IMG/VR virus record: IMGVR_UViG_3300044951_001863
Span: 1-54,076 of that record
Source: a virus
Length of the DNA: 54,076 bases
Reading direction: 5' to 3' (one strand)
Shown: positions 26,084 to 48,935 of the stretch, one piece after another
How the letters are laid out: each line of letters begins with the position of its first letter
Position numbering within the stretch: position 1 is the stretch's first letter
Translations under genes and position numbers: made by a program
The notes under the pieces: model-generated
Databases searched by the model: none
What the model saw: only the letters and a program-made list of their open reading frames with translations
Told to the model about the DNA's origin: nothing

Positions 26084-26347
26084 CTATTCAATTGTATTAA
26101 CTGTCAATTTATAAGTTTTGAAGAACCAAGCGTCAACGACTTTAAGGAGAACCTGAGAAATATATCCTTTACCATATTTTTTATACAAGGAGTCTTTAAC
26201 CTCATCACTAACATACATTGTACCTGATTTAATATCGAATAAAAAGAATTCATTTGCCCATGTTTGTTCCACTTTATCGTAATAAAGGTATGGGAATGCG
26301 AATTTATCCTCAATGAATTTAACTACGTGTTTTTCTATTGTTGTCAT
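26084..26347 (-). CDS. Untagged F-W family protein
   Basis: 87 residues, MTTIEKHVVKFIEDKF. It lacks the I-T-E tag but ends VVDAWFFKTYKLTVNTIE, the family signature. It has its own TATCTTTG element 5 bases before the ATG, so its mRNA is probably leaderless and it is expressed separately from the tagged operon. Confidence 0.72.
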   Translation of the reverse strand: MTTIEKHVVKFIEDKFAFPYLYYDKVEQTWANEFFLFDIKSGTMYVSDEVKDSLYKKYGKGYISQVLLKVVDAWFFKTYKLTVNTIE

Positions 26348-26352
26348 AGATA

Positions 26353-26360
26353 CAAAGATA
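26353..26360 (-). promoter_or_regulatory. TAnnTTTG -7 element, 5 bases before ATG
   Basis: Minus-strand TATCTTTG five bases before the ATG at 26347. No clear TTG at -33. Confidence 0.6.
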
Positions 26361-26379
26361 CGATAATAGAATAAATTAT

Positions 26380-27123
26380 CTATGAATTTGGGTACTCAAA
26401 AACCTTTAATTCCCACTTATTATTTTTTGTTAAAACAAGTGCGGAGAAGTTCTCAACCCAATCACCTGAGTTGTAATATTCAATACCGTTAATCACTTTA
26501 ACAGATGGGATATGGATGTGTCCACAGATTACGCCATCACAATTAAGGGTTTTAGCGTAATCACAAGCATTAACTTCAAAGTCATTAATGAACGATAATG
26601 CTTTCTTAAAGTTTTCTTTAATGATTTTAGAGATACTGTAGTATGGTTTTCCTGTGAGTTCTCGGTATTTGTTATACCAAGTATTAAGTCTAAGGGCGAA
26701 GTCATAACCTATGGAACCAATTTGAGTAAGTAATTTATATTTGGTTGTAACATCTATCCTATCACCATGAAATATAAAATACTTTTTATCGTTAACGGTA
26801 TAGATATAATCTTCCACAAATTTAATATTACCAAGAAATGTATGGTATAAATCCTTAACATCATTATCATGATTCCCTCTGATATAGATAATCTCTGTAT
26901 CTTTGGACATCTCCAATAGTTTGATAACAACTTTCATGTGTTTACCTTTCCACTTGGAACCACGACGAAGAGCGTCGATATCAATTATATCACCATTCAG
27001 GATTAACGTCTCTGTCTTTATGGATTCAAGGAACTTAAGAATCTTTTTAGGTTTACAATCTGCCATTCCCAAATGTAAATCGGAAAGGATTACACATTTA
27101 TATTTTCCAGTAGTTGTGGTCAT
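26380..27123 (-). CDS. Calcineurin-like metallophosphoesterase, LpxH-like
   Basis: 247 residues. SDLHLG (D15, H17), NGDIID (44-45), RGNHDND (83-86), FHGDRID and GHIHIP near residue 200 make a complete metallophosphoesterase motif set. The order and length match UDP-2,3-diacylglucosamine hydrolases (LpxH) of lipid A synthesis. It overlaps the glycosyltransferase gene start-to-end by 26 bases, so the pair is translationally coupled and may modify host lipid A or a related glycolipid. Confidence 0.85.
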   Translation of the reverse strand: MTTTTGKYKCVILSDLHLGMADCKPKKILKFLESIKTETLILNGDIIDIDALRRGSKWKGKHMKVVIKLLEMSKDTEIIYIRGNHDNDVKDLYHTFLGNIKFVEDYIYTVNDKKYFIFHGDRIDVTTKYKLLTQIGSIGYDFALRLNTWYNKYRELTGKPYYSISKIIKENFKKALSFINDFEVNACDYAKTLNCDGVICGHIHIPSVKVINGIEYYNSGDWVENFSALVLTKNNKWELKVFEYPNS

Positions 27124-27799
27124 TTCTAAAGAAGTTATCGTTATTTCTGTTTATGTAACCTAAGAATGCCATCTTCATCATATACAACAATCCTTTATTT
27201 CTGAATCTTCTATCGGTTGTGTATATTTTATGTGGAGCAACTGAGAAACGACGAGGGTCTATCTTCATACTAAGATGGAAATCCTCACCAAATTTATCTT
27301 CATTAACAAATCCACCAACTTTATTAAATTCTGATAGTTTAAACAACATATAACCTCCAATAGCACATGGCGCTTTTGACGCGATTAAGTTTCTAAAAAA
27401 TTCAAACACAGGAAAAATGAATGAGTATACCCCTTTAACTCTAAATTTGGTTGTAACTAAATGAAGACGATTGTTTTGAGTAATTCTAAGTGTTTCATAG
27501 ATTGTGTGTCTATCAGTTAAGAATATGTCGGCGTCCAAAAACAAAACATAATCGGTTTTAACTAGTTTAGCTCCATTATTTCTTGCAACACTTGGAAGAC
27601 CACCATCAATAACTTCAAGGTTTAAGTTTTTATACTTTCCTGATAATACAATGTTTACAGTCATATCGTCAGAACAATCTGCAACGATTACACGAGTACC
27701 TTTAATACCGTATTGGTTGTTAAGATGAGATAAAGTAATATCAATTACATCGGCTTCATTTTTTGCAGGAATTACAATAGTTAATTTGTCTTTTATCAT
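27098..27799 (-). CDS. Family 2 glycosyltransferase
   Basis: 233 residues. TIVIPAKNEAD at the N-terminus, VADCSDD and the catalytic FLDAD (residues 88-91) define a GT2 domain of the GT-A fold. It would transfer a sugar from a nucleotide donor. There is a TATTTAT box 4 bases upstream. With the LpxH-like gene it suggests remodelling of the host cell surface. Confidence 0.9.
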   Translation of the reverse strand: MIKDKLTIVIPAKNEADVIDITLSHLNNQYGIKGTRVIVADCSDDMTVNIVLSGKYKNLNLEVIDGGLPSVARNNGAKLVKTDYVLFLDADIFLTDRHTIYETLRITQNNRLHLVTTKFRVKGVYSFIFPVFEFFRNLIASKAPCAIGGYMLFKLSEFNKVGGFVNEDKFGEDFHLSMKIDPRRFSVAPHKIYTTDRRFRNKGLLYMMKMAFLGYINRNNDNFFRNDHNYWKI

Positions 27800-27803
27800 A
27801 ATA

Positions 27804-27810
27804 ATAAATA
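27804..27810 (-). promoter_or_regulatory. TATTTAT box, 4 bases before ATG
   Basis: Minus-strand TATTTATTATT before the ATG at 27799. Confidence 0.55.
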
Positions 27811-27824
27811 GTTAGTTGGTTGAT

Positions 27825-28208
27825 TCAATTTTGTTCTATCCATTCTAAACCCTCAAGAATAGTTGATTTTTCACCCACAGATGGGAAGAATAAGATTCGT
27901 GGTTTATTACCATCCCAAGAAGTAACAACTGATTTAAGTAAAGAAGAACAATTATCAATTATGTGGTTAACAATCTTCTTCTCAACCCTATCATCCATAA
28001 GTTCACAGAAATGGAGAGGGGAAACATAAATGTTAATTTTTAATAAGTTTTTATCTCTTCGGGAGGTACCACTACTACTATGGTTAATTGTGGGGCTAAA
28101 TGTATACGGGTCATATAGTTCCTCACCAACATAAACACTATCCACTTCCAAAATAAATGGAAATAGTTTCTTCATGTATTTATTTAATATCAGGAGCTCT
28201 GAGGTCAT
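27825..28208 (-). CDS. Uncharacterised 127-residue protein
   Basis: The start MTSELLILNKYM lies 5 bases after a complete host-type promoter, so a leaderless mRNA is likely; MKKLFPFILE 33 bases downstream is an alternative start. Contains a polar Ser-rich middle and a C-terminal strand-helix. Divergent from the gene at 28272. Confidence 0.68.
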   Translation of the reverse strand: MTSELLILNKYMKKLFPFILEVDSVYVGEELYDPYTFSPTINHSSSGTSRRDKNLLKINIYVSPLHFCELMDDRVEKKIVNHIIDNCSSLLKSVVTSWDGNKPRILFFPSVGEKSTILEGLEWIEQN

Positions 28209-28213
28209 ATTTA

Positions 28214-28244
28214 CAAAGATAGATAATTAAAATCAATTTGACAA
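28214..28244 (-). promoter_or_regulatory. Complete host-type promoter for a leaderless gene
   Basis: On the minus strand, TTG (28244-28242), 20 bases, TATCTTTG (28221-28214), then 5 bases to the ATG at 28208. Confidence 0.8.
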
Positions 28245-28259
28245 ATAGGTGCGTTAAGG

Positions 28260-28266
28260 TATTTAT
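28260..28266 (+). promoter_or_regulatory. TATTTAT box, 5 bases before ATG
   Basis: TATTTAT before the ATG at 28272; divergent from the host-type promoter at 28214-28244. Confidence 0.52.
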
Positions 28267-28271
28267 AATGG

Positions 28272-28646
28272 ATGAGAGAACTTATTAGACGAATAATAAA
28301 AGAAGAAACAGAGAAAGATTTATCTCCAATGATAACCAAGTTATTGGAAACAAATTTTTTACCCTCACATGATGGAATTGTTTGTGGTGTGAAAGTTATT
28401 GCACCACACAACAGGGAATTGGCATCAAATCAAGAATTTGGATTCTCACATTACAGAATAGATGTTAAAGTTATTGGTGGCCATGGGACCAAATATTTTC
28501 CTGTGACACAAGCTGACCGTAAAATGTATGATGATATAATTGATGAGATTTGGCAATTAGTTTATAGTTATGTCGGGGAACCAACAGACATTTATGTTAA
28601 AAAAGTAAAAAACTGTGATAATACATTACCAATCACCACAAGATAA
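28272..28646 (+). CDS. Uncharacterised protein with a tag-like N-terminus (124 residues)
   Basis: MRELIRRIIKEETEKD is close to the second half of the long tags (LVRRVIKE) and contains I-K-E. The following domain is beta-rich (FGFSHYRIDVKVIGG) and unrecognised. Own TATTTAT box; ends before a perfect AGATAAACC/GGTTTATCT hairpin. Confidence 0.72.
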   Translation: MRELIRRIIKEETEKDLSPMITKLLETNFLPSHDGIVCGVKVIAPHNRELASNQEFGFSHYRIDVKVIGGHGTKYFPVTQADRKMYDDIIDEIWQLVYSYVGEPTDIYVKKVKNCDNTLPITTR

Positions 28647-28669
28647 ACCCCAAATTATGAGGTTTATCT
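28641..28669 (+). terminator. Hairpin after the 124-residue gene
   Basis: AGATAAACC (28641-28649) pairs with GGTTTATCT (28661-28669). There is no T-run, so the terminator assignment is tentative. Confidence 0.45.
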
Positions 28670-28743
28670 TACCATGAAAGGTAATATTGTTTTGTGTGAA
28701 AGTTATAATAAAGTGTTGTGTAAAAATTAGTTTTTGATGAGGT

Positions 28744-28792: not shown

Positions 28793-28797
28793 CTTTT

Positions 28798-29301
28798 TTA
28801 CTCCTCATATACTCTCTTTACACTAACAGGAGCAACAAAAGACATATCATATTCAACAATCTCTTTCTTAAGACCTGCAAGTTCCTCACGATTATAATAC
28901 GGAGCAAAGGTCGGTCGGTCTCGGAATGACATTTGTTCACGGCTTTCCCATACATCCAACTTATGATTGATATCACTAACTGTGGAGGTAAGATAATCAT
29001 ATTGTTTCCATTTCTCATAATCTTCCTCAGAGACAATGTACATTACATTGCCGTAGTTCTCAATCTCAGAAAGGTTTGGGTTTGTGGAATAGATATCCAC
29101 AATACCATCATAACCATCGTATTGGTTACAAAGTTCTTGAAGGGAATGTAAGTTATTAACATTCTGTTTCCATTGTCGTCCATATGAACGAACATTACAA
29201 ATATAAAGATATCCATCCACATAAAAGTGTAAATGATTGTTGATTTCATTTTTTAAAGAAACAAGGTCTTCAATGCTGTATTTTGTAAGGTCTAATATCA
29301 T
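28798..29301 (-). CDS. Uncharacterised 167-residue protein
   Basis: Start at MILDLTKYSIEDL, 4 bases after a host-type promoter on the minus strand. The longer upstream frame would cross the promoter and is rejected. Contains helical N-terminal (VSLKNEINNHLHFYVDG) and Tyr-rich segments. No family recognised. Confidence 0.75.
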   Translation of the reverse strand: MILDLTKYSIEDLVSLKNEINNHLHFYVDGYLYICNVRSYGRQWKQNVNNLHSLQELCNQYDGYDGIVDIYSTNPNLSEIENYGNVMYIVSEEDYEKWKQYDYLTSTVSDINHKLDVWESREQMSFRDRPTFAPYYNREELAGLKKEIVEYDMSFVAPVSVKRVYEE

Positions 29302-29305
29302 ACGA

Positions 29306-29335
29306 CAAAGATAATAAAATATTTGGTTAGGACAA
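29306..29335 (-). promoter_or_regulatory. Host-type promoter for a leaderless gene (minus)
   Basis: TTG (29335-29333), 19 bases, TATCTTTG (29313-29306), 4 bases, ATG at 29301. It overlaps the plus-strand promoter below, so the two divergent promoters share sequence. Confidence 0.8.
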
Positions 29336-29353: not shown

Positions 29354-29374
29354 TACTTAATAAAAAGATGAGTT

Positions 29375-32876: not shown

Positions 32877-32883
32877 TATTTAT
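32877..32883 (+). promoter_or_regulatory. TATTTAT box, 5 bases before ATG
   Basis: TATATTTATTAATAATG directly after the terminator; only candidate promoter for the genes 32889-34405. Confidence 0.6.
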
Positions 32884-32888: not shown

Positions 32889-33878
32889 ATGAAAACAATT
32901 ACCACAATATCGGAAGAGTCCAATGAGCCATCATTAAAAGTGGTTTCCAAGCTATTCAAGTTATTAGACGAGGAGAAGAAAAAAAATAGAACGAGAGCAT
33001 CTTTATTGACCGTCATCAAACACATGGCGCCATATATGGGAATACCTGAAGGGTTTGAACAATATATTTTGGAATTGTATGTGTTAAACTTTAAAAAAGA
33101 TGGTGACTATTCAAATCTAACAAAGGAGAACTTTGTTGACCCAAGAAAACAAAAGGGTAAAGTTATATCAAATCCAAATGCGAAGTTATACACAATAGCC
33201 CAATTACCTTTCAGGGGTTCAAACTTAGAGGGTTATTGGACTGAAGACCCAAAAGGAATTCCATACTACAAAGTTGCATCATACGGATGGTACCCAGTTT
33301 ACATATTCAAAGATGATAAGTGGTATGAGGTAACTGCAAATTATTCTTCATCCACGAGTAGACAAATGAGTAATTCCAATCCTGTATCGTGGGACAATAA
33401 AGAGTTTGACAATTTGTACACATTAACTCCTGAGGAGATGAAACTATTAGAAAGAGGATATAGTCACGAGGAGATAATGAAGAATAAGGTACAGAAATTA
33501 AAAAATATTGAACCTGATTTAAAAAAGAGAAAGAAAACTGCAAAGACGTTCAACTATTGGAATCGGGACCCAGAACAAATGGTTCCAAATACAAATATAA
33601 AGTTCCAAGTAAAGAATATAGATGTGAATGATGACAAAGCTTTCGTGGACATAGATGTATATGATGTTCTTAAAAGAGAAAACAACACCCAAGTGACTAC
33701 ACCACAAAACTATTTAAAGGGGGAGATTCCTAACCTTGATTCAACTAAGGTGGAAGACGCAATCAAAATCAAAATGAGGGGAGAACTTAAAGACTATATT
33801 GGTAAGAGATTCAGATGGAAGGCGGAAGACCCAAAAGGAGCGAAGATAGAATTTAGATTTAAACATTTAAAACAATAA
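32889..33878 (+). CDS. Uncharacterised 329-residue protein, possibly tagged
   Basis: Starts MKTITTISEESNEPS, with I-S-E near the N-terminus. A basic, Lys-rich helical region (RKQKGKVISNPNAKLYTIAQ) and a beta C-terminus follow. It shares a unit with the DUF6321-like tagged gene, so a virion role is plausible. No known domain recognised. Confidence 0.72.
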   Translation: MKTITTISEESNEPSLKVVSKLFKLLDEEKKKNRTRASLLTVIKHMAPYMGIPEGFEQYILELYVLNFKKDGDYSNLTKENFVDPRKQKGKVISNPNAKLYTIAQLPFRGSNLEGYWTEDPKGIPYYKVASYGWYPVYIFKDDKWYEVTANYSSSTSRQMSNSNPVSWDNKEFDNLYTLTPEEMKLLERGYSHEEIMKNKVQKLKNIEPDLKKRKKTAKTFNYWNRDPEQMVPNTNIKFQVKNIDVNDDKAFVDIDVYDVLKRENNTQVTTPQNYLKGEIPNLDSTKVEDAIKIKMRGELKDYIGKRFRWKAEDPKGAKIEFRFKHLKQ

Positions 33879-34564: not shown

Positions 34565-34595
34565 TTGACAAAATAAATACCTATGATTATTATTG
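34565..34595 (+). promoter_or_regulatory. Host-type promoter, leaderless, TATTATTG variant
   Basis: TTGACA at 34565, 20 bases between TTG and TA, TATTATTG at 34588-34595, then 4 bases to the ATG at 34600. Confidence 0.65.
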
Positions 34596-34599: not shown

Positions 34600-34881
34600 A
34601 TGAATTTACCAATAGACTACACGAAATTAACTCAGCCACAAAGAAGAGAGGTTAGGTTACAATATATCAAAGAACAGAACAATTTATGTATGTATTGTGG
34701 GGAGACATTAGACAGTCCCGCACCTGAGAGAATAACAAAGAGACGAATCAATCTAAAACTATTCCCTGATGGATTCTTGGACCATCCGATACATCTACAA
34801 CATTGTCATAAAACCAATATGACTGAAGGAGCGGTACATGCTTATTGTAACGCGGTACTATGGGAATACGAAGGTAGGTAA
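34600..34881 (+). CDS. HNH-type endonuclease
   Basis: 93 residues. CMYCGE in the middle and HLQHCHKTNMTEGAVHAYCN near the C-terminus form a compact HNH nuclease with a zinc knuckle; the final helix (AVLWEYEGR) is typical of phage HNH proteins. It could be a homing enzyme or a packaging-linked nuclease; no terminase is nearby. Own host-type promoter and terminator. Confidence 0.8.
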   Translation: MNLPIDYTKLTQPQRREVRLQYIKEQNNLCMYCGETLDSPAPERITKRRINLKLFPDGFLDHPIHLQHCHKTNMTEGAVHAYCNAVLWEYEGR

Positions 34882-34918: not shown

Positions 34919-34925
34919 TATTTAT
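34919..34925 (+). promoter_or_regulatory. TATTTAT box, 4 bases before ATG
   Basis: It begins immediately after the terminator T-run and ends 4 bases before the ATG at 34930. Confidence 0.58.
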
Positions 34926-34929: not shown

Positions 34930-35703
34930 ATGAACTTACAAGAAAACATACAAAGAATAAGAGAGATGATGATTGCCGAAGAGATGGTTCAGTCCGACGC
35001 ATGGAAATCAATCAAGAAAACATTAGATATTCTTAAAGATAAAAAGAAAGTTTTAATCTTAAGTTGTTCCAATAGATATAATTGGGATAAGGAGAACGAA
35101 GATATTCCAAAATCAAAGGCGATTGCCATGTACCTTAACGATGAGTTAAAAGATACATCAGTTTTAATTGATGTTTCCGAACTTAATATAGTTCCTTGTG
35201 AAGGGAATGTATCAAGAAAAGATGGGAATAGTTGTGGGGTGTTAAAATCCATGCTTAAAGATAAGAAGAAAAATCCATCAGGTGACCATAGATGTTGGGC
35301 AAGTTATAACAATCCAAAGGATGAACTATGGAAGATATCAAAAGAGTTATTTGAATCTGACGCAGTTATATTTTTTAGTTCCATCAGGTGGGGACAAACC
35401 AATATGTTCTACCAAAACTTAATCGAGAGACTAACTTGGATTGAGAATAGACACGCAACATTGGGGGAATCAAATCTTGTTAAGGATATAGAGACAGGGT
35501 TTATTTGTGTTGGACAGAATTGGAATGGTGAGAACGTAACTGAAATACAAAAAAAGGTTCATGAGTTCTATGGTTTCAAACCAAACGATGATTTATATTG
35601 GAATTGGCAATACACCAAAGATGTGAACGATGAAACTCAAAAATCATATAAAGCTTCACATAACAAATTTGTTAAAGACACCAAACTACCTGACTTTAAA
35701 TAA
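34930..35703 (+). CDS. Tagged flavodoxin-fold / FMN reductase-like protein
   Basis: 257 residues. A second tag type MNLQENIQRIREMM opens the protein and is shared with the next gene. The core begins KKVLILSCSNRYNW and has an SDAVIFFSSIRWGQTNMFYQN segment, as in NADPH-dependent FMN reductases and flavodoxin-like WrbA relatives. It also has a cysteine-bearing GNSCGVLKS segment. Redox activity with FMN is likely; substrate unknown. Confidence 0.78.
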   Translation: MNLQENIQRIREMMIAEEMVQSDAWKSIKKTLDILKDKKKVLILSCSNRYNWDKENEDIPKSKAIAMYLNDELKDTSVLIDVSELNIVPCEGNVSRKDGNSCGVLKSMLKDKKKNPSGDHRCWASYNNPKDELWKISKELFESDAVIFFSSIRWGQTNMFYQNLIERLTWIENRHATLGESNLVKDIETGFICVGQNWNGENVTEIQKKVHEFYGFKPNDDLYWNWQYTKDVNDETQKSYKASHNKFVKDTKLPDFK

Positions 35704-36343: not shown

Positions 36344-36661
36344 TTAATTATGTATCCAACTAAATTGATGGTCATTAATTGTTGATATTTTAGATATATC
36401 TAATTTGTAAATAGATTCTAACCACTCTGACATTAACAGGGATACTTTTGTATACGATAAATCAAAAAAATTCTCTAAAAATCTCCAAACAATACTATAC
36501 CTTATATGAACTTCTTTAGTTACCCAATTGTATACAATTATTTTTTCACCCTTTAAAAAATAAAAAACATAATATTCACATTCCTCTGTTTTATAAGGGG
36601 GTAAATTACCATACTCGGTGGTAAGAAAGTTAAAGATAGCATGTTTAAGATTGTCGGTCAT
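36344..36661 (-). CDS. Untagged F-W family protein (105 residues)
   Basis: Start at MTDNLKHAIFNFLT, 5 bases after a complete minus-strand host-type promoter. N-terminal helix, a YYVFYFLKGEK and VTKEVHI strand pair, then FLENFFDLSYTKV and MSEWLESIYKLDI. The pattern equals that of 40695, 42733 and the N-terminus of 45733. Function unknown. Confidence 0.75.
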   Translation of the reverse strand: MTDNLKHAIFNFLTTEYGNLPPYKTEECEYYVFYFLKGEKIIVYNWVTKEVHIRYSIVWRFLENFFDLSYTKVSLLMSEWLESIYKLDISKISTINDHQFSWIHN

Positions 36662-36666: not shown

Positions 36667-36696
36667 CAAAGATAATGATTAATATGACTATATCAA
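36667..36696 (-). promoter_or_regulatory. Host-type promoter for a leaderless gene (minus)
   Basis: TTG (36696-36694), 19 bases, TATCTTTG (36674-36667), 5 bases to the ATG at 36661. Confidence 0.8.
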
Positions 36697-36717: not shown

Positions 36718-36748
36718 TTGACAATAAAAACAAATATTAATATATTTG
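36718..36748 (+). promoter_or_regulatory. Host-type promoter for a leaderless gene (plus)
   Basis: TTGACA at 36718, 20 bases between TTG and TA, TATATTTG at 36741-36748, 4 bases, ATG at 36753. Confidence 0.82.
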
Positions 36749-36752: not shown

Positions 36753-37019
36753 ATGAAGAAAATATACAGAGTAGTTAAACATACACACTACGAGAAAGGG
36801 GAGATAAATAAAGAACATTATACAGTACAATGTCAATCAAAGTTCTTATGGTGGAAACTATGGGAGAATATAACAGATGTGGAATGTCATAATGGGGATT
36901 GTCAATCTTATCCACTTACATTCAATACTGAAATAGAAGCCACCAATATGATTACCAATTTACAAAATGGTAATAAGATAACAGGGTGGGACAAAGAGAT
37001 TGTAACTGTAGTAAAATAA
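36753..37019 (+). CDS. Uncharacterised 88-residue protein
   Basis: Basic, beta-rich: MKKIYRVVKHTHYEKGEI, then YTVQCQSKFLWWKLWENI and a final strand. Leaderless start behind a complete promoter and a strong terminator behind it, so it is a monocistronic unit. No family recognised. Confidence 0.72.
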   Translation: MKKIYRVVKHTHYEKGEINKEHYTVQCQSKFLWWKLWENITDVECHNGDCQSYPLTFNTEIEATNMITNLQNGNKITGWDKEIVTVVK

Positions 37020-37030
37020 TCCAATCCATT

Positions 37031-37100
37031 CACTCACTACAAAGGGAGACTCCATTCGGGTCTCCTTTTTTCGTTCATTCATGTATCGTATCATTTTCGG
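37031..37100 (+). terminator. Terminator cassette, copy B
   Basis: AAAGGGAGAC pairs with GTCTCCTTT before a T-run. Both flanks match copy A at 34421-34490 (TCACTCACTACA, TTCGTTCA, GTATCATTTT). Confidence 0.85.
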
Positions 37101-37798
37101 ATATTATCGTATAAATACGGATATAAGTCCTGAACCTTATAAACATATATTATCAGTCTATAACCTTATTATTACCTATAACCCGATAATAATTATATGT
37201 TCCCCGCCCAACATATGTGGTCCCCACCTAAACGAAGAGACATATGTGGTGGTATTAGTAATCGTTATATGTAATGACATATAAAAGTAATGGTCTACGA
37301 CCATTTATATGTGATGTCATATAATTACACGATGATATAATAACTTATGTTTCATATCAGTGTAGTCAGTTTAAAACTCACATGAGTGATATGAATAGTA
37401 AGTTTCCCCACTACTTACCACTAATGAGTTGTCTCCACTACGAAAGGATGTTACATGGTCTATACGAGGGGGACATATAGTGTATCGGTTCACTCCTTAG
37501 GTCGGTCTGTGACACTCGTTGAAGTAATAAAAGTCCTTCTATAACACTCGTAAACTCGTTTCCACGCGTCTTTCACTTACTACTCCCTTTTTCGCTAGGA
37601 AATACACATAGTAAAAAACTGGTCCTGTAGGGGTCGTCAGGGGGAAAAAAGTGGTCTTTACACTATCCACATGACACTATCGGTGGTAAAAAGTGGTAGA
37701 CTGTGTAACCACGGTGGGGGTTAAATGCGGGGAAAGGGATTATCCCCTATCGAGAGCTCCCCTGACATTTTGACAAATCCAAATAATTTACCCTAAAG
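37101..37798. other. Gene-poor control region, left part
   Basis: About 700 bases without a supported gene. A 67-codon open frame at 37081-37284 overlaps the terminator cassette and has repeat-driven composition, so I do not call it. The stretch has repeated ACATATGTGGT (near 37218 and 37249) and an inverted repeat ACATATA...TATATGT (37277-37312) enclosing AATGGTC/GACCATT. AAAAAGTGGT occurs twice (near 37650 and 37690). It reads like a control or replication region. Confidence 0.6.
37277..37312. repeat. Two-part palindrome
   Basis: ACATATA/TATATGT outside and AATGGTC/GACCATT inside, around TAC; ATGAC/GTCAT extends it outward. Could form a hairpin or a protein-binding dyad. Confidence 0.6.
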
Positions 37799-37860
37799 TT
37801 ATCAACAATTAACATTTATTTTTCCTTATGACAGACTGTCAGGACCAAAAGTTATCAACA
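37799..37860. other. DnaA-box-like sites and a TGACAG palindrome
   Basis: TTATCAACA at 37799-37807 and 37852-37860 (one mismatch from TTATCCACA), with the perfect dyad TGACAGACTGTCA at 37829-37841 between them. Similar sites recur at 39077-39131. Candidate replication-origin elements. Confidence 0.5.
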
Positions 37861-37923
37861 CCCCAACTGTTAATACATCCTAATCGGATGGTTTCACCTT
37901 TATTTTATATGTTCCCCAACCTA

Positions 37924-37930
37924 TATTTAT
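37924..37930 (+). promoter_or_regulatory. TATTTAT box, 4 bases before ATG
   Basis: TATATTTATGATTATG; the box ends 4 bases before the chosen ATG at 37935. Confidence 0.5.
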
Positions 37931-37934
37931 GATT

Positions 37935-38207
37935 ATGGATATAACAGTAGACAATTTGACATATGAATTATCCCCAATGGATGAGGGAGTAATAAGAATA
38001 GTAATCTCAGATGGTGGGGGAATGGAGTTAGGTTCTCTATATTTCGAGAGGGCAAAGAAAACCTTCCAACGTAAACCAATAGGAATGGATGCGTGGGGAT
38101 GTGTGGATGCCAAGATAGAAGGACTCTATGAATATGGCGGGGACAACATTACCCCCAAGGATATAGTGGGTAAGTGTCAGGAACTAATAAGGGAGTATGT
38201 AAAATAA
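37935..38207 (+). CDS. Uncharacterised acidic protein (90 residues)
   Basis: MDITVDNLTYELSPMDEG; an upstream ATG adds MI only. Beta-rich, then a C-terminal helix (IVGKCQELIREYVK). The gene lies inside the otherwise gene-poor region and uses noticeably more G-run codons than its distant neighbours. Ends at a terminator shared with the small convergent gene. Confidence 0.7.
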   Translation: MDITVDNLTYELSPMDEGVIRIVISDGGGMELGSLYFERAKKTFQRKPIGMDAWGCVDAKIEGLYEYGGDNITPKDIVGKCQELIREYVK

Positions 38208-38230
38208 GAGGGGGACATCAATGTCCCTCT
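38206..38230. terminator. Shared bidirectional hairpin terminator
   Basis: GAGGGGGACA and TGTCCCTC flank TCAA. It lies between the convergent genes ending at 38207 and 38232. Confidence 0.7.
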
Positions 38231-38231
38231 G

Positions 38232-38387
38232 TTATTTCTTTGTAAGGTGGTTATAAACCCCAACTACTACATACCCAACAAACAATGCTTTAAGGAAACC
38301 TTTCATGACTAATGATTTAAATGTGTAAGAGATGACGGCGACTATCACCGTCAAGACACAAATATACAAACAAATTATGACATTCAC
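38232..38387 (-). CDS. Small membrane protein with GTG start (51 residues)
   Basis: The minus frame begins GTG and reads (M)NVIICLYICVLTVIVAVIS, then FKSLVMKGFLKALFVGYVVVG and a basic end NHLTKK. Two hydrophobic spans and a positively charged tail are characteristic of real membrane proteins. No ATG precedes the frame's upstream stops. A host-type promoter (38555-38585) points at it across about 170 bases of structured leader. Confidence 0.55.
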   Translation of the reverse strand: MNVIICLYICVLTVIVAVISYTFKSLVMKGFLKALFVGYVVVGVYNHLTKK

Positions 38388-38399
38388 AAAGAATGGGGG

Positions 38400-38550
38400 A
38401 TTTCATTAGTAATAATTTTCTCTTAGTTAAAGGTACCATTATGATATTCGTAACAAAGGTGGGGGATTTATATTAAAAATATAAAGCGCTGCTCCGTCCA
38501 CTCTCCCCAACCTTACTTGCGCCCCCTGTCGGAGTGGTTACCGATTCAGT
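38400..38550 (-). ncRNA. Structured leader or small RNA upstream of the 51-residue gene
   Basis: Downstream of the minus-strand promoter, CCACTC can pair with GAGTGG around a G-rich loop, and an AT-rich TTTATATT/AATATAAA stem follows. No open frame. It is either a long 5' leader or a separate small RNA; a tRNA fold was not found. Confidence 0.4.
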
Positions 38551-38554
38551 GATA

Positions 38555-38585
38555 CAAAGGTACGGATAATAAATGTAACCCCCAA
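38555..38585 (-). promoter_or_regulatory. Host-type promoter pointing left
   Basis: TTG (38585-38583), 20 bases, TACCTTTG (38562-38555). Same -7 variant as promoter P4 of the giant RNA. Confidence 0.75.
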
Positions 38586-38598
38586 ACAATATATCATA

Positions 38599-38605
38599 TA
38601 TTTAT
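38599..38605 (+). promoter_or_regulatory. TATTTAT box, 22 bases before ATG
   Basis: In ATATTTATCATTAATATATT, upstream of the ATG at 38628; spacing longer than usual. Confidence 0.35.
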
Positions 38606-38627
38606 CATTAATATATTATACAACACT

Positions 38628-39050
38628 ATGGCAGTTAGAAATGTAATGACCCCCGATGAATTAAGAAACAACTATGAGTTCAAGGTTGTAAGGAAGGCCC
38701 TTATGAATGAGAACAAATGGATTAAGGATGTGATTATAAATGAGGATGAGGTAAACCTTTATAATGTAATCTTCTTAGAACTTATCGTGGACCCAATACA
38801 AATGGCCAATGAATATGAGAGACCATTCCTTCCATGGGTAACTAGGGACCTTGATAGTGGGAAAGGTTATAGAGCCACATACCCATCACTACTATTGGAC
38901 ATGTCATATGAAGAAGGAGATAACCTCATCACATCTCCCATGAATCAGATGATGGAAGACATACATAGCTCCCCCGCCTTACCCGTGGAACTTAGACTAC
39001 CACAAGGTCGGTCATTCCACATCGGGTCATTCATTGTCCCCGAACAATAG
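38628..39050 (+). CDS. Uncharacterised 140-residue protein
   Basis: MAVRNVMTPDELRNNYEF, then a helical middle and a beta C-terminus (GRSFHIGSFIVPEQ). It sits between the two clusters of DnaA-box-like sites. No DNA-binding motif is recognisable. C-rich codons differ from the AT-rich neighbours. Confidence 0.72.
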   Translation: MAVRNVMTPDELRNNYEFKVVRKALMNENKWIKDVIINEDEVNLYNVIFLELIVDPIQMANEYERPFLPWVTRDLDSGKGYRATYPSLLLDMSYEEGDNLITSPMNQMMEDIHSSPALPVELRLPQGRSFHIGSFIVPEQ

Positions 39051-39536
39051 TTAACAAACAATATCATACCATAAAGTTATCCACAGTAATATGTTGATAA
39101 CTTTTTTTTTATCACCCTGTCATGTTGATAACTAATGGGGAGGGGGGATAACATTGTTAATAACTTATACTGACAGACCACCCCTCTGGCATGGGGTCTA
39201 CCCCCCTATGGGGCCCCCCTCCCCCCCGTATCCCCCCTTACTATACTGTCAGAATGTCATATAGGGGGGATAATCCCCTAAATCAAATAAAATAATTTTT
39301 GGGTAAAAATTTACCCCTCCGGTTAGATGGTCGGGGGAATAAATCCCCCACCCTTTAATGGGTGAATAACTCCTATCCGGAAATAATGATTCATTACCCG
39401 GAAATTTTCCGGATATAAACCCTACCTACGGGGTGGAGTATTGGTCCGGGGAACACGACCCCTTCTTTTTAAATGTCCCTTCAATGACAAAAATAATTTT
39501 TGGGGAAAAAATGTTCTTTGTTTGGTATTTATTTCT
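39051..39536. other. Gene-poor control region, right part: candidate origin
   Basis: TTATCCACA (39077-39085, a consensus DnaA box) is followed by TGTTGATAA at 39092-39100 and 39123-39131. CTGTCA/TGACAG sites and a cluster of C and G tracts (39180-39260) also lie here. The 9-base inverted repeat ATCCGGAAA/TTTCCGGAT is at 39375-39383 and 39406-39414. No supported gene. Confidence 0.55.
39526..39532 (+). promoter_or_regulatory. TATTTAT box, 4 bases before ATG
   Basis: GGTATTTATTTCTATGG; box 4 bases before the ATG at 39537. Confidence 0.58.
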
Positions 39537-39857
39537 ATGGAATATATTATAAGTGAGAAGAGGTTATTTAGTGTTATCCTTAAATGGTTACGAAAGGAGT
39601 TTCCAAATTTAAAACGGGAAGACATAGGTCCTAACATTATTTTTTCGGAAAGTGATGGTAATATTATTTTCTTGTATAAGAAGAAACCTATGGAATTGTT
39701 TATTTCATCTGATGACAGTAGAATACATTTTTCGTTAATGGATTTTTTTAAATTAAATGAAAAACAAATCCATAAGGTAATTAAGTTATGGGTAAAGAAA
39801 GATTATAGACTACCTGTAAAAGATGTTATTATAAGAAAAAGATTCAAGTCTAATTAA
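39537..39857 (+). CDS. Tagged small protein, F-W family
   Basis: 106 residues from MEYIISEKRLFSVIL (tag with I-S-E); a longer upstream reading crosses the promoter box and is rejected. Ends LMDFFKLNEKQIHKVIKLWV, then KDYRLPVKDV, the family signature. Very basic C-terminus. Confidence 0.78.
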   Translation: MEYIISEKRLFSVILKWLRKEFPNLKREDIGPNIIFSESDGNIIFLYKKKPMELFISSDDSRIHFSLMDFFKLNEKQIHKVIKLWVKKDYRLPVKDVIIRKRFKSN

Positions 39858-39860
39858 TAT

Positions 39861-39888
39861 AACCCCCTCCCAACAGAGGGGTTTTTTT
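39861..39888 (+). terminator. Intrinsic terminator
   Basis: AACCCCCTC and GAGGGGTT around CCAACA, then a T-run. Confidence 0.9.
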
Positions 39889-40023
39889 ATGTCCAATCTC
39901 GGAAGTAACAATTACTCTCGTATGATGAACGGGGTCGTTCTTTACTCTCGTCTACTATTCTGTAAAGTGGACCCCCCTTTTTATTTTACCCTCTTCAAGG
40001 ACAAAAAAAATTTTTGGAAAATT

Positions 40024-40054
40024 TTGTGAGAAATGGGGAAATGTTATATCTTTG
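40024..40054 (+). promoter_or_regulatory. Host-type promoter
   Basis: TTG at 40024-40026, 20 bases, TATCTTTG at 40047-40054, 25 bases before the ATG at 40080. Confidence 0.78.
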
Positions 40055-40079
40055 TTGACTAATATAAAATAAAGGTGTA

Positions 40080-40625
40080 ATGGTATTGGATTATTTACAG
40101 TTGGCGAAACTTAAATTTGGTCAAAGGAAGGATGTTGATTTTGGGTTAAAGTTAAAGGATTTTATTTGTGACTGTTATGTTAGGTTATTACCGTGTTCTT
40201 ATGGTAAGAGGATTGAACAGAAAATTATACGGGAGTTTGGTATGGAGTCAGTTAAAACTCGTATGAATCGGGGGGACTCTAAGAAGAATGGAAAACACTT
40301 TGAGATTAAGGTTAGTTTTTTATCCAATCTTTCTAACGCTTATAATCTAACCCATCTTAGGCCGTGGCAGTTAATTGATTATTATTTATTTTGTTTTGTT
40401 GATTGTGAGAATGATTTCACCCCCATGTTTTTTGTAATCCCTAAACATATGATTTATAAGTTTAAAATATGTCCTATGAATGGTACTGAACTTTCTAATG
40501 AGAATAACCATAACATTGAGATGAGGTCTACTATTAATAAGGGGACAAAGGAGTATAAAGATTTATTGAAATATAATTTATTGTTTGATACATCGGCGAA
40601 ATCGTTAATGGAGTTTTTGGGGTAA
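40080..40625 (+). CDS. Possible PD-(D/E)XK nuclease
   Basis: 181 residues. RGDSKKN (D66) followed by HFEIKVS (E75-x-K77) fits the D...ExK core of restriction-type nucleases, with an N-terminal helical region and a C-terminal mixed domain (FVIPKHMIYKF). The spacing between D and ExK is short, as in some type II enzymes. It stands alone behind a host-type promoter and directly before a dispersed repeat. A homing or host-DNA-degrading enzyme is possible. The assignment is moderate. Confidence 0.6.
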   Translation: MVLDYLQLAKLKFGQRKDVDFGLKLKDFICDCYVRLLPCSYGKRIEQKIIREFGMESVKTRMNRGDSKKNGKHFEIKVSFLSNLSNAYNLTHLRPWQLIDYYLFCFVDCENDFTPMFFVIPKHMIYKFKICPMNGTELSNENNHNIEMRSTINKGTKEYKDLLKYNLLFDTSAKSLMEFLG

Positions 40626-43295: not shown

Positions 43296-43302
43296 TATTT
43301 AT
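43296..43302 (+). promoter_or_regulatory. TATTTAT box, 4 bases before ATG
   Basis: TATTTATCATTATGG precedes the gene at 43307. Confidence 0.58.
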
Positions 43303-43306: not shown

Positions 43307-43612
43307 ATGGAATATATTATTAAAGAATCACAGGTTAAGAATTTAATGTGGAAATATTTTGATTCTCCTGATTATAATGTTAAGGAAACACAACATTATC
43401 TTTCCCTTGAAAACAACCATGGCAATCAGACTTGGCATTATAAGATTTATAATAATAAATTATTGGTTTCTAATGATATCATCTTTGGGTTTGCGGCCAT
43501 GTTTAATGTTTCGGGTGAGGACGCTTTGGAATATGCTGGTGAATGGTTTGAAGAAACGTATGATTATCCTGTTAATGAGATTGTTAATTGGGACTTTAGT
43601 GATGATGATTAA
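43307..43612 (+). CDS. Tagged small protein, F-W family
   Basis: 101 residues. MEYIIKESQVKNLMWKYFD tag, then FAAMFNVSGEDALEYAGEWF and ETYDYPVNEI. Own TATTTAT box. Very acidic C-terminus. Confidence 0.78.
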   Translation: MEYIIKESQVKNLMWKYFDSPDYNVKETQHYLSLENNHGNQTWHYKIYNNKLLVSNDIIFGFAAMFNVSGEDALEYAGEWFEETYDYPVNEIVNWDFSDDD

Positions 43613-43836: not shown

Positions 43837-43843
43837 TATTTAT
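43837..43843 (+). promoter_or_regulatory. TATTTAT box, 5 bases before ATG
   Basis: TATATTTATCATTAATG precedes the gene at 43849. Confidence 0.6.
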
Positions 43844-43848: not shown

Positions 43849-44967
43849 ATGAAATACGTATTAACAGAATCTCAATATAAAAAATTAAACGAAGCGGTTG
43901 GTGTCCCAACTAATATCGTTGACATTGCCAGACAACTATACGACAAAATGATGTCGGAACTTAAACCAACCACCAAATTAAAATCTTTCATAAAAAAACC
44001 AATAGTATTAAAGGGAAATTTTCAAATTAATGATTATAAGTTTGACACTATTAACTTGGAATTTAATGTTGATAGTTTAGATGAATATGATGTTAATGGG
44101 GATAGTAGACAAAAAATATATCTAAGAGGTATGACCCATCGTAGTACAGTGGAGATGAACAATAAATTCAATTACACTACTAATCGTGATATGGATGTAA
44201 TTGATTTGTCAATTAATATGACTTTAGATAATGACGCAACAACTCAAGATTTAATTGATGAGTTTAAAAAAGAAAAAGTAGTAATCATCTCAAGTTTGGC
44301 TCATGAGATAAAACACGGTTACGATGAATCTGTTAACCCAAACTTAAAAACCAATAAACGAGTTGAATATCAAATTGGAAGTCAAAGACAATTTGGAAAT
44401 ATACCACCATTAAATAAATTATTACATTATATGTATTTTGCTCATACCACAGAAAATTTGGTTAGAGCCACAGAATTGTATGCTGCGTTGGAGGAGGAAG
44501 GAATCACCAAAGAAGATTTTTATAAATTTATCACAAATAATAAAGTTTATGAGATTTATAAAGACGGAGCCAATTTAACTTATGAAAAACTAAGGGATGA
44601 TTTAAAAAAGATTATCCCCCAAATTAAAGAAACTTTTGACGATAATAATATTAATTATCCTGAAGATGCATCAGATGACGAAATGGTTGATGTAACATTA
44701 AAGGAGTTCTTTAAGACTTTATTGAATTGGAGAGCAGGCACAATGAAGTCATATTTAACACAAGAGTTTATTGAAGAACTCTTTGGGTTTAGTGGAAAGA
44801 AACAAAAATATTTTGACAAATATTTGGATAGGGTTACAAGATTTGGTGGTGACTATGAGAAATTCATCAAATACGAGATTAATCAGACAAGAAACATTTG
44901 TCTAAAAATGACAAAAAAATTAAGTAAATTATACTCTTTATTGAAAAACAAAAATAACCCACTTTAA
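43849..44967 (+). CDS. Tagged zinc-metalloprotease-like protein
   Basis: 372 residues. Tag MKYVLTESQYKKLNEA (L-T-E). The long N-terminal beta domain is followed by SLAHEIKHGYDE with HExxH at 152-156, and RATELYAALEEE supplies a third acidic ligand, as in gluzincin-type proteases. The C-terminal ~100 residues are helical. A packaged protease that cleaves host or virion proteins is a reasonable inference. Own TATTTAT box and terminator. Confidence 0.78.
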   Translation: MKYVLTESQYKKLNEAVGVPTNIVDIARQLYDKMMSELKPTTKLKSFIKKPIVLKGNFQINDYKFDTINLEFNVDSLDEYDVNGDSRQKIYLRGMTHRSTVEMNNKFNYTTNRDMDVIDLSINMTLDNDATTQDLIDEFKKEKVVIISSLAHEIKHGYDESVNPNLKTNKRVEYQIGSQRQFGNIPPLNKLLHYMYFAHTTENLVRATELYAALEEEGITKEDFYKFITNNKVYEIYKDGANLTYEKLRDDLKKIIPQIKETFDDNNINYPEDASDDEMVDVTLKEFFKTLLNWRAGTMKSYLTQEFIEELFGFSGKKQKYFDKYLDRVTRFGGDYEKFIKYEINQTRNICLKMTKKLSKLYSLLKNKNNPL

Positions 44968-45732: not shown

Positions 45733-47010
45733 ATGGAAAAGATTATCAATAGATTAATAATTGAGGGTGTTGAAGGTTGTGATGTATATCATCATAATAA
45801 ATCTACTTGGTTAATATTCACGGATACAAAACAATGGGTTGTTGAGTTAACTAATGGTGGAACTTTATGGTACAATTATAGTTTTTTCAATAATTTATTT
45901 CAATATGTTTCTTTGGATGTTGTGGATAATCAACAATACATCACCAAATGGATGGAAAGTTTTATTAAAAAGGGGTTGAACCAAACATCAGACAATCCGT
46001 TTGAATTTAAAGATGTTATTGAAAATACGATTAAATATGGGTCTATTGATTCCGTTAAAGTAAGCGAATACTCCTTGGGGTTTGCCAAGAGGCAAAAGGA
46101 TTGTGAAGACACAATTCAAAATGGTGTGAGAAAAACCTTATGGATTTGTGCAGAACGAGAAAAGTTGGTTGAGACAACTCTTAATAATGGTGTAAAAGAA
46201 ACTAATCCTGTTGATGTGATGAAGTTTTTTGACAATAAAATGGAAGAGGTATTACAAAATGGGATAAAAAACACTCAGAATAACCCGTATCTTAATGAAA
46301 GTTGGATTGAAGGTGTTATTAAAAAGGGTGTAAAACATACCGAAGATGGTGATTGGTTAGTCGGTGATGTAAGGTTGGATGATATTATTGAAAATGGGGT
46401 GAAAGAAATTTACGATTATAAAGGTCATAGATGGGATGTTAAAGATGTTATTCAAGATGGGGTGAGAGATATTTCCCCAATGACACAATATACTGATTGG
46501 CAAGTTGAAGAAATAATTGAAAATGGTGTGAAAGAAACCCACGATGACGCATATCACCACAAAGGAAGAATAGATGGTGTGATTAATAATGGTGTTAAGG
46601 AAATTTATAATTATAAAGGTTTTAGACCACGCAACATAGATGATATCATTCAAACCGGTGTTAAGGAAACAAAGACACCCGGTAAAGATGGAGATATTAT
46701 GTCAACCGTTGAATGGATGAAAGAAAATAACTCAACTAGTTATCCCAAAATGATTGAAGATGTTATTAATAATGGTGTTAAAGAAACCCAACCATTACCA
46801 GAACAAAGTGGTGAACTAAGAGGTTATGGGGATTACTATAACCTAAAAGAAGATAGAACAAAAGCATTTATAGATTATCTTGAGGAAACAATTAAATTTG
46901 GTGTGAAAGAAGTTTATTGGTTACCAAAAGAACATAAACAAATTGACAGTAATGTTAACCCTATTGATGATGTTATTGAGAATGGTGTTAAAGAAGGAAC
47001 TTTAATTTAG
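45733..47010 (+). CDS. F-W domain fused to an ENGVKE repeat array
   Basis: 425 residues. Residues 1-80 are the untagged F-W domain (INRLIIEGVEGCDVYHHNK, TWLIFTDTKQWVVEL, FFNNLFQYVSLDV, YITKWMESFI). The remainder is about a dozen degenerate copies of [D/E]-x-I-x-N-G-V-K-E-[TI], spaced 20 to 40 residues apart. Clear units include DIIENGVKEI, DVIQDGVRDI, EIIENGVKET, DVINNGVKET and ETIKFGVKEV. This looks like a solenoid or bead-on-string array. Truncated or single-unit relatives are at 40695 and 42733. Function unknown; a scaffold or binding protein is plausible. Confidence 0.82.
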   Translation: MEKIINRLIIEGVEGCDVYHHNKSTWLIFTDTKQWVVELTNGGTLWYNYSFFNNLFQYVSLDVVDNQQYITKWMESFIKKGLNQTSDNPFEFKDVIENTIKYGSIDSVKVSEYSLGFAKRQKDCEDTIQNGVRKTLWICAEREKLVETTLNNGVKETNPVDVMKFFDNKMEEVLQNGIKNTQNNPYLNESWIEGVIKKGVKHTEDGDWLVGDVRLDDIIENGVKEIYDYKGHRWDVKDVIQDGVRDISPMTQYTDWQVEEIIENGVKETHDDAYHHKGRIDGVINNGVKEIYNYKGFRPRNIDDIIQTGVKETKTPGKDGDIMSTVEWMKENNSTSYPKMIEDVINNGVKETQPLPEQSGELRGYGDYYNLKEDRTKAFIDYLEETIKFGVKEVYWLPKEHKQIDSNVNPIDDVIENGVKEGTLI

Positions 47011-47012
47011 TA

Positions 47013-47019
47013 TATTTAT
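47013..47019 (+). promoter_or_regulatory. TATTTAT box, 14 bases before ATG
   Basis: TATATTTATAATAAAAAAAT upstream of the lipoprotein gene at 47034. Confidence 0.5.
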
Positions 47020-47033
47020 AATAAAAAAATGTT

Positions 47034-47567
47034 ATGAAAAAAGTATTATTAATTATTGGATTGTTTTTTCTTTTATCATCTTGTGTAGGATATCAAAATG
47101 TTTCATCCCAACCAAGAATAACACATATCTTGGCAGTTAATGAATTGGGCCAGCAAGTGCAAGTTCCATTATCCACATTTTCAAACCAATTAGACCCATA
47201 TTATTATAATAATTGGAGATTTTATTGGGGAAATAATTGGTATAATGGTTATAATTGGTGGTTTTATTTTGATGACCCTTATTGGAGACCAAGAATTTAT
47301 AATTATTATTATTCTTATCCGGTATATTATAATAATGGGTATAGAGTTGCAAGAAATAATGGTTATAGAGGAAGAGAATATCGTAGAGATGAAACACCAT
47401 CTGTTGGAGGACAAAGAGGTGGAAGACAAGAAACTCCGTCAGTAAGACCACAAAGAACAGAAACCCCGTCAGTAAGACCTCAACAAGAATATAGACCTGA
47501 AACACCTTCGGTTAGGCCACAAAGTGGTGGGAGAGGAACAACATCACCTTCATCAGGAAGACGATAA
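47034..47567 (+). CDS. Lipoprotein with Tyr-rich domain and ETPSVRPQ repeats
   Basis: 177 residues. MKKVLLIIGLFFLLSSC is a lipoprotein signal peptide with lipobox LSSC (Cys17), so it should be anchored in the host envelope. The middle is rich in Tyr, Trp and Asn (WRFYWGNNWYNGYNWW). The C-terminus has four or more ETPSVRPQ-type repeats rich in Arg and Pro. A phage lipoprotein of this sort may block superinfection by binding receptors; this is inference. TATTTAT box 14 bases upstream. Confidence 0.82.
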   Translation: MKKVLLIIGLFFLLSSCVGYQNVSSQPRITHILAVNELGQQVQVPLSTFSNQLDPYYYNNWRFYWGNNWYNGYNWWFYFDDPYWRPRIYNYYYSYPVYYNNGYRVARNNGYRGREYRRDETPSVGGQRGGRQETPSVRPQRTETPSVRPQQEYRPETPSVRPQSGGRGTTSPSSGRR

Positions 47568-47589
47568 ACTTTTTTTTCACATATTAAGG

Positions 47590-47596
47590 TATTTAT
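47590..47596 (+). promoter_or_regulatory. TATTTAT box, 13 bases before ATG
   Basis: GGTATTTATAATAAAAC upstream of the 54-residue gene at 47610. Confidence 0.5.
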
Positions 47597-47609
47597 AATA
47601 AAACAAAAC

Positions 47610-47774
47610 ATGAAACACATATTGAATAATTTATCGGAAGAAGAAAAAAATGCCATCCGTGAACAACACACAGGAGGAATGAAAGTAATGACTGAGAATT
47701 TCTCTAAATTAATAAATTCAAAGCTTGGTGATTCAAAACCATTGGTTAATGAACAAGAAAAAAAAGTGAAATAA
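47610..47774 (+). CDS. Small tagged-type protein (54 residues)
   Basis: MKHILNNLSEEEKNAIREQH is the LSEEEKNxIxEQH form of N-terminal tag, followed by TGGMKVMTENFSKLIN and ending NEQEKKVK. It lies 7 bases before the GH16-like gene and has its own TATTTAT box. It may be a tag-only scaffold-like protein. Confidence 0.65.
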   Translation: MKHILNNLSEEEKNAIREQHTGGMKVMTENFSKLINSKLGDSKPLVNEQEKKVK

Positions 47775-47781
47775 ACAATTT

Positions 47782-48642
47782 ATGAGTAAATTATCTAAAT
47801 TTTATGACCGAATAAAAAAACTATTTCGTCGTAATAAAAAATCATTATCATTAACAACTTATAATGTCACATTTGATTCAGATTGGACCAGCGATTGGTG
47901 TAATATGTCTCCAATAATTGAAAATTCAACCGTTACCTTTAATGCTGGTAGAGTTGTTTCAACCCATGGGTTTAAAAACATTTCTAAAATTACTGCAACA
48001 ATTGACCTATCAGGAATGGAACCAACCGAAATTCAAAAAAACAATTGGTTAAATGCTTCGTTTTATATGGTGAATAGTGCAACCCAACCTAAAGGGACTA
48101 ACTATTGTGACGCAGGTAATTCAGGGTCTCCATATTGTAATGAAATTGACTTTATGGAAACTAATGGTAATAGAATACTTCAACAAACAATTCATTTAAA
48201 TAACAAACAAAGATTTGAATATTCTTATAGTGAAGCAATTCTGAGTGATGATTGTTACACTCAAAGTAATTTATCTAATAACCCTGGTGAAGGAACTCAT
48301 AGTTTAGTTGATGTTATTGATGTAACAATTCCATTTGATATGGAAGTTACTTTTAATTCTGATTACACAAATATGAGTATTATTTTAACTCAAAATGGTG
48401 TGAGTATTTTAACATATGATGTATTAAACAATGGAGGTGCTGATGGTACAACCATAGATATGTCATCATTAAAATCGTCAATGTCTGTTGGTTGGTGGAT
48501 AACACCTTCATATTGGGAAGTATATTCCCCTAAAGGTCCTTATGATTCTCCTTGGTTTACAGGAGATTGTTATAACGATAAGTTATGTAATGCGGGATGG
48601 AAACTATCAAATGTGGTAGTGACCGCTGAATCACAAATATAA
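47782..48642 (+). CDS. GH16-like glycoside hydrolase
   Basis: 286 residues. After a basic N-terminus comes a concanavalin-like beta sandwich with EIDFME at 121-126, the ExDxxE catalytic motif of family GH16 (laminarinases, agarases and relatives). Several Cys pairs suggest disulfides. No secretion signal is seen. It could cut host capsule or exopolysaccharide, or act as a virion depolymerase. It follows the small tagged gene by 7 bases. Confidence 0.78.
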   Translation: MSKLSKFYDRIKKLFRRNKKSLSLTTYNVTFDSDWTSDWCNMSPIIENSTVTFNAGRVVSTHGFKNISKITATIDLSGMEPTEIQKNNWLNASFYMVNSATQPKGTNYCDAGNSGSPYCNEIDFMETNGNRILQQTIHLNNKQRFEYSYSEAILSDDCYTQSNLSNNPGEGTHSLVDVIDVTIPFDMEVTFNSDYTNMSIILTQNGVSILTYDVLNNGGADGTTIDMSSLKSSMSVGWWITPSYWEVYSPKGPYDSPWFTGDCYNDKLCNAGWKLSNVVVTAESQI

Positions 48643-48650
48643 TATTAACC

Positions 48651-48678
48651 AACCCCTCCCACAAAGAGGGGTTTTTTA
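48651..48678 (+). terminator. Intrinsic terminator
   Basis: AACCCCTC and GAGGGGTT around CCACAAA with a T-run. Confidence 0.9.
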
Positions 48679-48679
48679 T

Positions 48680-48709
48680 TTGACATATACAAATAAAAAC
48701 TTATTATTG
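48680..48709 (+). promoter_or_regulatory. Host-type promoter, leaderless, TATTATTG variant
   Basis: TTGACA at 48680, 19 bases between TTG and TA, TATTATTG at 48702-48709, then 4 bases to the ATG at 48714. Confidence 0.65.
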
Positions 48710-48713
48710 GTTT

Positions 48714-48935
48714 ATGGAAATGAATGTAATAATAGGAAAAGTTGATTATTTAATCACAGATGAAAGTACAATTCATCAAGGTGAAGAGTTAGTTTTTGAA
48801 ATAAGAAATCGTAGTAGTGATAATATTAATGATAGTTCATTTATTATTGGGGCCTTTGATGACTTATTAGGGGCACCAATTAAAAAAGTATGGAAAATTA
48901 TAGGAAAAACACCTGTAAAGGGCAATAAATCTTAA
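48714..48935 (+). CDS. Uncharacterised 73-residue protein
   Basis: MEMNVIIGKVDYLITDEST, a small beta-rich protein with a basic end (KKVWKIIGKTPVKGNKS). Leaderless start behind a host-type promoter. No family recognised. Confidence 0.65.
   Translation: MEMNVIIGKVDYLITDESTIHQGEELVFEIRNRSSDNINDSSFIIGAFDDLLGAPIKKVWKIIGKTPVKGNKS

Follow-up and report, generated by a model that had tools for sequence, protein, structure and literature searches.

Promoter-like boxes next to start codons in the window

The window analysed here, the whole 54,076 nucleotides (nt) of IMG/VR virus record IMGVR_UViG_3300044951_001863, contains two kinds of short boxes that end 4 to 5 nt before an ATG, a placement from which leaderless mRNAs would be expected: a host-type box, TAnnTTTG, and a late-type box, TATTTAT. 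An earlier note on this DNA had listed seven host-type boxes in this position. All seven are present, five as TAnnTTTG and two as the variant TATTATTG. Four lie on the minus strand: a TATCTTTG box (26353..26360) five bases (N5) before the ATG at 26347, TTG-N20-TATCTTTG (28214..28244) N5 before the ATG at 28208, TTG-N19-TATCTTTG (29306..29335) N4 before the ATG at 29301, and TTG-N19-TATCTTTG (36667..36696) N5 before the ATG at 36661. On the plus strand, the promoter TTG-N20-TATATTTG (36718..36748) precedes the ATG at 36753 by N4, as do the promoter-like sequences TTG-N20-TATTATTG (34565..34595) and TTG-N19-TATTATTG (48680..48709) the ATGs at 34600 and 48714, respectively. The TTG thus stands 19 to 20 nt before the box at six of the seven sites and is missing at 26347; sigma-ABfr promoters combine a TAnnTTTG box with a -33 TTTG, and the TTG at the right distance at these six sites agrees with that, as does the logo of the class. 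An eighth site, missed in the earlier note, is TTG-N19-TATTATTG (5216..5245, plus strand) N4 before the ATG at 5250; the three listed relatives did not show it. For most homologues of the seven proteins no function is known.

Genes were called with a simple custom script, and gene counts are therefore approximate. Among the 95 genes called, five have a TAnnTTTG box at N4-5, whereas the more distal offsets predict 0.46 (Poisson P ~1e-4); if [A/T]TTG boxes are counted, the numbers are eight and 0.69 (P ~7e-7). Across the window, 23 TTG-N18-21-TAnnTTTG sites were found, vs 6.8 +/- 2.4 in shuffles. The strongest single site is 29301: in all seven listed, diverged relatives (38-56% protein identity) TAnnTTTG lies exactly 4 nt before the ATG, with other bases changed. 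The TATTATTG variant is weaker evidence than TAnnTTTG, and as a general box variant it showed no clear enrichment outside the window. The Endonuclease VII-like gene at 34600 was considered as support for the class; the last G of its box is not kept in the 86%-identical relative L004, which has TATTATTC instead, and the gene does not support the class because most of its many relatives are without a box at the start.

TATTTAT had also been proposed to share the leaderless placement, which it does, and more often than the host-type boxes. On the minus strand it occurs at 11875..11881 (N5, ATG at 11869; kept in relatives), 16362..16368 (N4, ATG at 16357), 26059..26065 (N5, ATG at 26053) and 27804..27810 (N4, ATG at 27799; kept in 4 relatives). 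On the plus strand, boxes with N5 lie at 20532..20538 (ATG at 20544; kept in most relatives at 31-52% identity), 28260..28266 (ATG at 28272), 32877..32883 (ATG at 32889; kept in G008 and L004), 43837..43843 (ATG at 43849; kept in G008 at 34% identity), 48958..48964 (ATG at 48970), 50182..50188 (ATG at 50194; directly after a terminator-like stem and T-run) and 51020..51026 (ATG at 51032), and boxes with N4 at 34919..34925 (ATG at 34930; kept in L008 and L014), 39526..39532 (ATG at 39537) and 43296..43302 (ATG at 43307).

Elsewhere in the window, four similar 51-nt host-type promoters (TTGACAGTTCAAAAAAACTTTC..TATCTTTG) are arranged in series at 12011-12640 (plus strand) around tRNA genes and short stretches without clear open reading frames, probably a small-RNA/tRNA array. 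A full-length GOLLD RNA (RF02032; 323 bits) was identified at 13179-13584 (plus strand), preceded by the two tRNA genes and followed by a TATCTTTG promoter. The region 37000-40100 is richer in GC (0.38 at 38-40 kb) and poor in long open reading frames, and contains numerous short repeats, both direct and inverted.

Distances between boxes and start codons

Distance statistics were obtained from five related contigs (1.04 Mb), in which each TATCTTTG was measured to the first ATG opening at least 40 codons. The distances are bimodal: 20 boxes lie at 4 nt and 6 at 5 nt, the interval 7-11 nt is empty, and 82 form a broad second hump at 12-30 nt. The leaderless share of the host-type promoters is about 22%. 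With the -33 TTG required, 33 of 152 sites lay at 3-6 nt in the phages vs 2 of 68 in hosts (P = 2e-4), represented by 1.2 Mb of Flavobacterium and Polaribacter DNA. The density of TATCTTTG-N4-ATG was ~19 per Mb in the phage contigs vs ~1.9 per Mb in host genomes. In whole-contig counts, TATCTTTG-N2-6-ATG occurred 81 times in the phages and the reversed pattern twice. Fortuitous AT-rich matches are a natural concern in an AT-rich phage with many boxes near starts, the window having 32% GC and 106 TAnnTTTG sites vs ~86 expected. However, the near absence of the reversed pattern argues against them, and composition yields neither bimodality nor conservation between orthologues. Chance is therefore an extremely improbable explanation and is excluded for the class, whereas single sites such as 34600, 48714, 5250 and 26347 could be due to it.

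Leaderless and leadered host-type sites have the -33 TTTG in common, which argues for real promoter elements. Mapped starts of Flavobacterium johnsoniae place the box at -12..-5, with probable promoters 4-5 nt from the start (PMC6847099). By this offset, N4 puts +1 on the A of the ATG and N5 one base before it, and the N4-5 peaks together with the mapped host offset have the box at the distance that places +1 on the start codon. The proposal of the earlier note that the boxes are positioned for transcription from the ATG is thus borne out with respect to placement, while the start itself is predicted from the mapped F. johnsoniae starts and, for the late class, from an A peak in leadered promoters.

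In an unbiased position search upstream of the 1254 genes called in the five contigs, TATTTAT was the top 7-mer. Its distance to the ATG was 4 nt in 83 cases, 5 nt in 35, 6 nt in 7, 7-11 nt in 8 and 13-25 nt in 137, and about 45% of the TATTTAT-headed genes are of the leaderless type. Another 29 phages, selected by their sigma sequences and less than 92% alike, showed the same two humps, with 41 boxes at 4-6 nt, 5 at 7-10 nt and many at 11-18 nt. No TATTTAT was found 4-8 nt before an ATG in Flavobacteriaceae hosts, and in whole host genomes the motif exceeded the control only slightly near starts. The box is (A/G)TATTTAT and not the T4-type late consensus TATAAATA; its upstream flanks are alike at both distances, and the 8 nt upstream contain no conserved base except the A/G at -1. 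Among leadered late sites, 78% have an A as the fifth base past the box, a peak at the very position taken by the A of the ATG in leaderless sites. This coincidence points to transcription starting there, although the step is less firm than for the host-type box, as the start-site offset of TATTTAT is itself deduced. Late leaderless genes encode shorter proteins than leadered ones (median 152 vs 228 amino acids, P = 0.002).

Conservation, transcription units and sigma factors

Reciprocal-best orthologue pairs with less than 85% identity were collected from the five contigs and evaluated by a Fisher test, the pairs not being independent. For late promoters, 48 pairs were leaderless in both members, 17 mixed and 57 leadered in both; for host-type promoters the numbers were 13, 2 and 17. 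These alignments also bear on the idea that the boxes are promoters but translation truly starts at a downstream in-frame codon, which would leave ordinary leaders and make an ATG at +1 incidental. Some orthologue alignments do miss the called ATG; among late leaderless pairs, the alignment comes to within 3 residues of both starts in 71%. In contrast, all host-type leaderless pairs align within 3 residues of both ATGs (15/15 in the start-codon count), and the codon at N4-5 after TATTTAT is ATG in 145 cases, GTG in 1 and TTG in 2. The gene following the gp55-like sigma gene described below, moreover, begins with MxRPxKK at the ATG behind its box throughout. We consider a downstream start very unlikely.

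At this gene, TATTTAT-N4-6-ATG is kept in 26 of the 29 phages, while the spacer outside it drifts and varies in length, the box sometimes touching the stop codon of the sigma gene. The encoded conserved protein of ~120 amino acids (MxRPxKKxI...) follows the gp55-like sigma gene in 29/29 phages examined (e.g., L331:10760-11122 and equivalents). It has no PHROG match and is a candidate late-transcription partner.

Leaderless initiation had been suggested to be the norm in this DNA, which the counts contradict: ~22 genes of the window are of the leaderless type, for 16 a promoter can be recognised at a greater distance upstream, and 57 are without an adjacent promoter, mostly as operon-internal genes. 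Of the 1254 genes in the five contigs, 160 are of the leaderless type and 203 leadered. Box-bearing genes tend to head transcription units; behind either box, 37-38% are divergent and the median same-strand gap is ~52 nt, vs 10% and 3 nt where no box is present. A terminator-like hairpin precedes the promoter in 25 of 160 leaderless and 10 of 203 leadered genes. Genome compaction was rejected as a cause of leaderless starts, as late genes of both types follow gaps of similar length (~52 nt for leaderless and ~47 nt for leadered ones). Shine-Dalgarno (SD) sequences were detected for 4.1% of the phage genes, less often than in the distal control (6.9%). The earlier note had matched leaderlessness to this scarcity, but SD 4-mers are rare in all gene classes, leadered and internal genes included, and in the mostly leadered hosts; leaderless starts therefore do not explain it.

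A contig of 145.5 kb, G001, carries three of the window's genes at 100% identity. The T4 major capsid protein Gp23 was found in 6 of 8 related contigs (E 1e-62 to 1e-67), though not in G001 or G003, the search having covered the related contigs; these relatives suggest that the window phage is a member of the T4 supergroup. A sigma-A-like protein of ~265 amino acids (e.g., L237:1078-1875 and equivalents) is encoded in all four statistics contigs that were searched for it, G002 being the fifth. Additional to it is a second, gp55-like sigma in 6 of 9 contigs, which probably reads TATTTAT. Its predicted model (mean predicted local distance difference test score 75.6, predicted template modelling score 0.43) has fold matches that are nearly all to sigma factors, including isolated region 2 at a template modelling score of ~0.7. 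G013 encodes a diverged gp55-like protein (29%) and has 3 TATTTAT-N4-ATG sites vs 2 in the control, a pattern that fits gp55 as the reader of TATTTAT in this single case. The gp55-like gene of G014 (L249, L251, L252) looks broken or misassembled, as its match is split into three pieces that have internal stops and are in part not in the same frame. A search for cultured relatives via the gp55-like protein yielded none.

TATTTAT at -11 to -5 might instead be an A/U-rich, Kozak-like translation-initiation element or a regulator site, and Bacteroidota start regions are indeed A/U-rich with Kozak-like preferences (PMC6847099). Yet the same motif with the same flanks recurs 13-25 nt upstream of other genes, leaving a gap at 7-11 nt, and it marks the first genes of units with an enrichment directly after terminators. 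Its absence from the leaderless position in hosts and the gp55-like sigma encoded by the phages also favour a promoter, so that we rate a translation signal as just as unlikely as a downstream start, or marginally more so.

Proposed built-in leaderless promoters and known systems

Taken together, the window most likely derives from a T4-like Bacteroidota phage with built-in leaderless promoters, in which a subset of each of two promoter systems is set 4-5 nt from the ATG. The first system would be the host-type TTTG/TAnnTTTG promoter, read by the host sigma-ABfr or by the phage-encoded sigma-A-like protein, and the second the phage late-type promoter (A/G)TATTTAT with the gp55-like protein as its probable sigma. 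From a box 4-5 nt before the ATG, RNA polymerase would start at the A of the AUG or one base earlier, and ribosomes would then initiate straight on the 5'-terminal AUG of the leaderless mRNA. The remaining promoters would give leaders of ~8 nt or longer. There seems to be an avoidance of leaders of ~2-7 nt, which would be expected of ribosomes that use either a 5'-terminal AUG or a long enough leader and nothing in between. The mode appears to be set gene by gene and to be stable over long divergence.

Several observations weigh against this reading. The phage start sites are predictions from box position, and in T4 numbering (box at -13..-6), +1 of the TATTTAT promoters would shift one or two bases downstream. 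Without the -33 filter, the contrast between phages and hosts for TATCTTTG is weaker (P = 0.09). The gp55-like gene was not found in G001, G002 and G003, which may be fragments, and by sequence the gp55 match is weak, with PHROG late-sigma matches in 4 of 5 members (E down to 4e-4 there, and to 2e-4 at the lowest) and no PDB sequence match, so that the assignment comes partly from the fold. The Bacteroidota host, finally, is deduced from the promoter type.

It is possible, though doubtful, that leaderless initiation constitutes a deliberate, gene-specific channel in host-type and late transcription, perhaps tied to changes of the ribosome during infection, with leaderless and leadered mRNAs translated differently. 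The ribosomal protein bS21 is reported to mask the anti-SD sequence in Flavobacterium, and a bS21 homologue (PF01165) is encoded in 4 of 9 related phage contigs (L253-L256), the basis for considering such a link. Leaderless and leadered genes expressed in the same infection would in any case be natural matched pairs for start-site choice by these ribosomes. For uncultured, barely annotated phages, the box-N4-5-ATG rule pins transcription units as well as start codons, and by it TATTTAT stands out as a late-promoter consensus that is probably new. With a layout that is rare or absent in hosts and T4, the phages offer a testable case of built-in leaderless translation. We found no papers on leaderless mRNAs of Bacteroidota phages in the open literature, subscription journals lying outside the search.

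The sigma-ABfr promoters of F. johnsoniae, F. psychrophilum and Bacteroides thetaiotaomicron resemble those of the window in the box, the -33 element and the lack of SD sequences. The mRNAs of these hosts, however, are mostly leadered, whereas ~22% of such promoters in the phages are leaderless: leaderless mRNAs make up 5.5% in F. psychrophilum, leaders shorter than 10 nt occur on 3.7% of the mRNAs in B. thetaiotaomicron, and 87% have leaders of more than 10 nt in F. johnsoniae. The late promoters of T4 (TATAAATA, read by gp55) likewise consist of a short A/T box that precedes the start by about one turn, and this phage group has Gp23 and a putative gp55-like sigma as well. In T4 (75-118 kb), in contrast, TATAAATA lies 14-28 nt from the ATG, once at 73 nt and never at 4-8 nt. 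In crAss001 (first 50 kb), host-type boxes filtered for the -33 element lie 19-35 nt from the ATG, and the first 50 kb of Tenacibaculum phage PTm1 show no distance peak. The layout was thus not seen as a general Bacteroidota-phage trait in these two, and the comparison indicates that it is general neither to T4 nor, in this small sample, to Bacteroidota phages. The jumbo phage AR9 is likewise large and has phage-specific promoters, but its leaders measure 26-491 nt (PMC5312081). The leaderless systems of mycobacteria, haloarchaea and lambda cI are similar in that the promoter places +1 on the AUG. Unlike in those, the arrangement described here would occur in a T4-like phage of a mostly leadered phylum, would involve two sigma classes and would avoid very short leaders.

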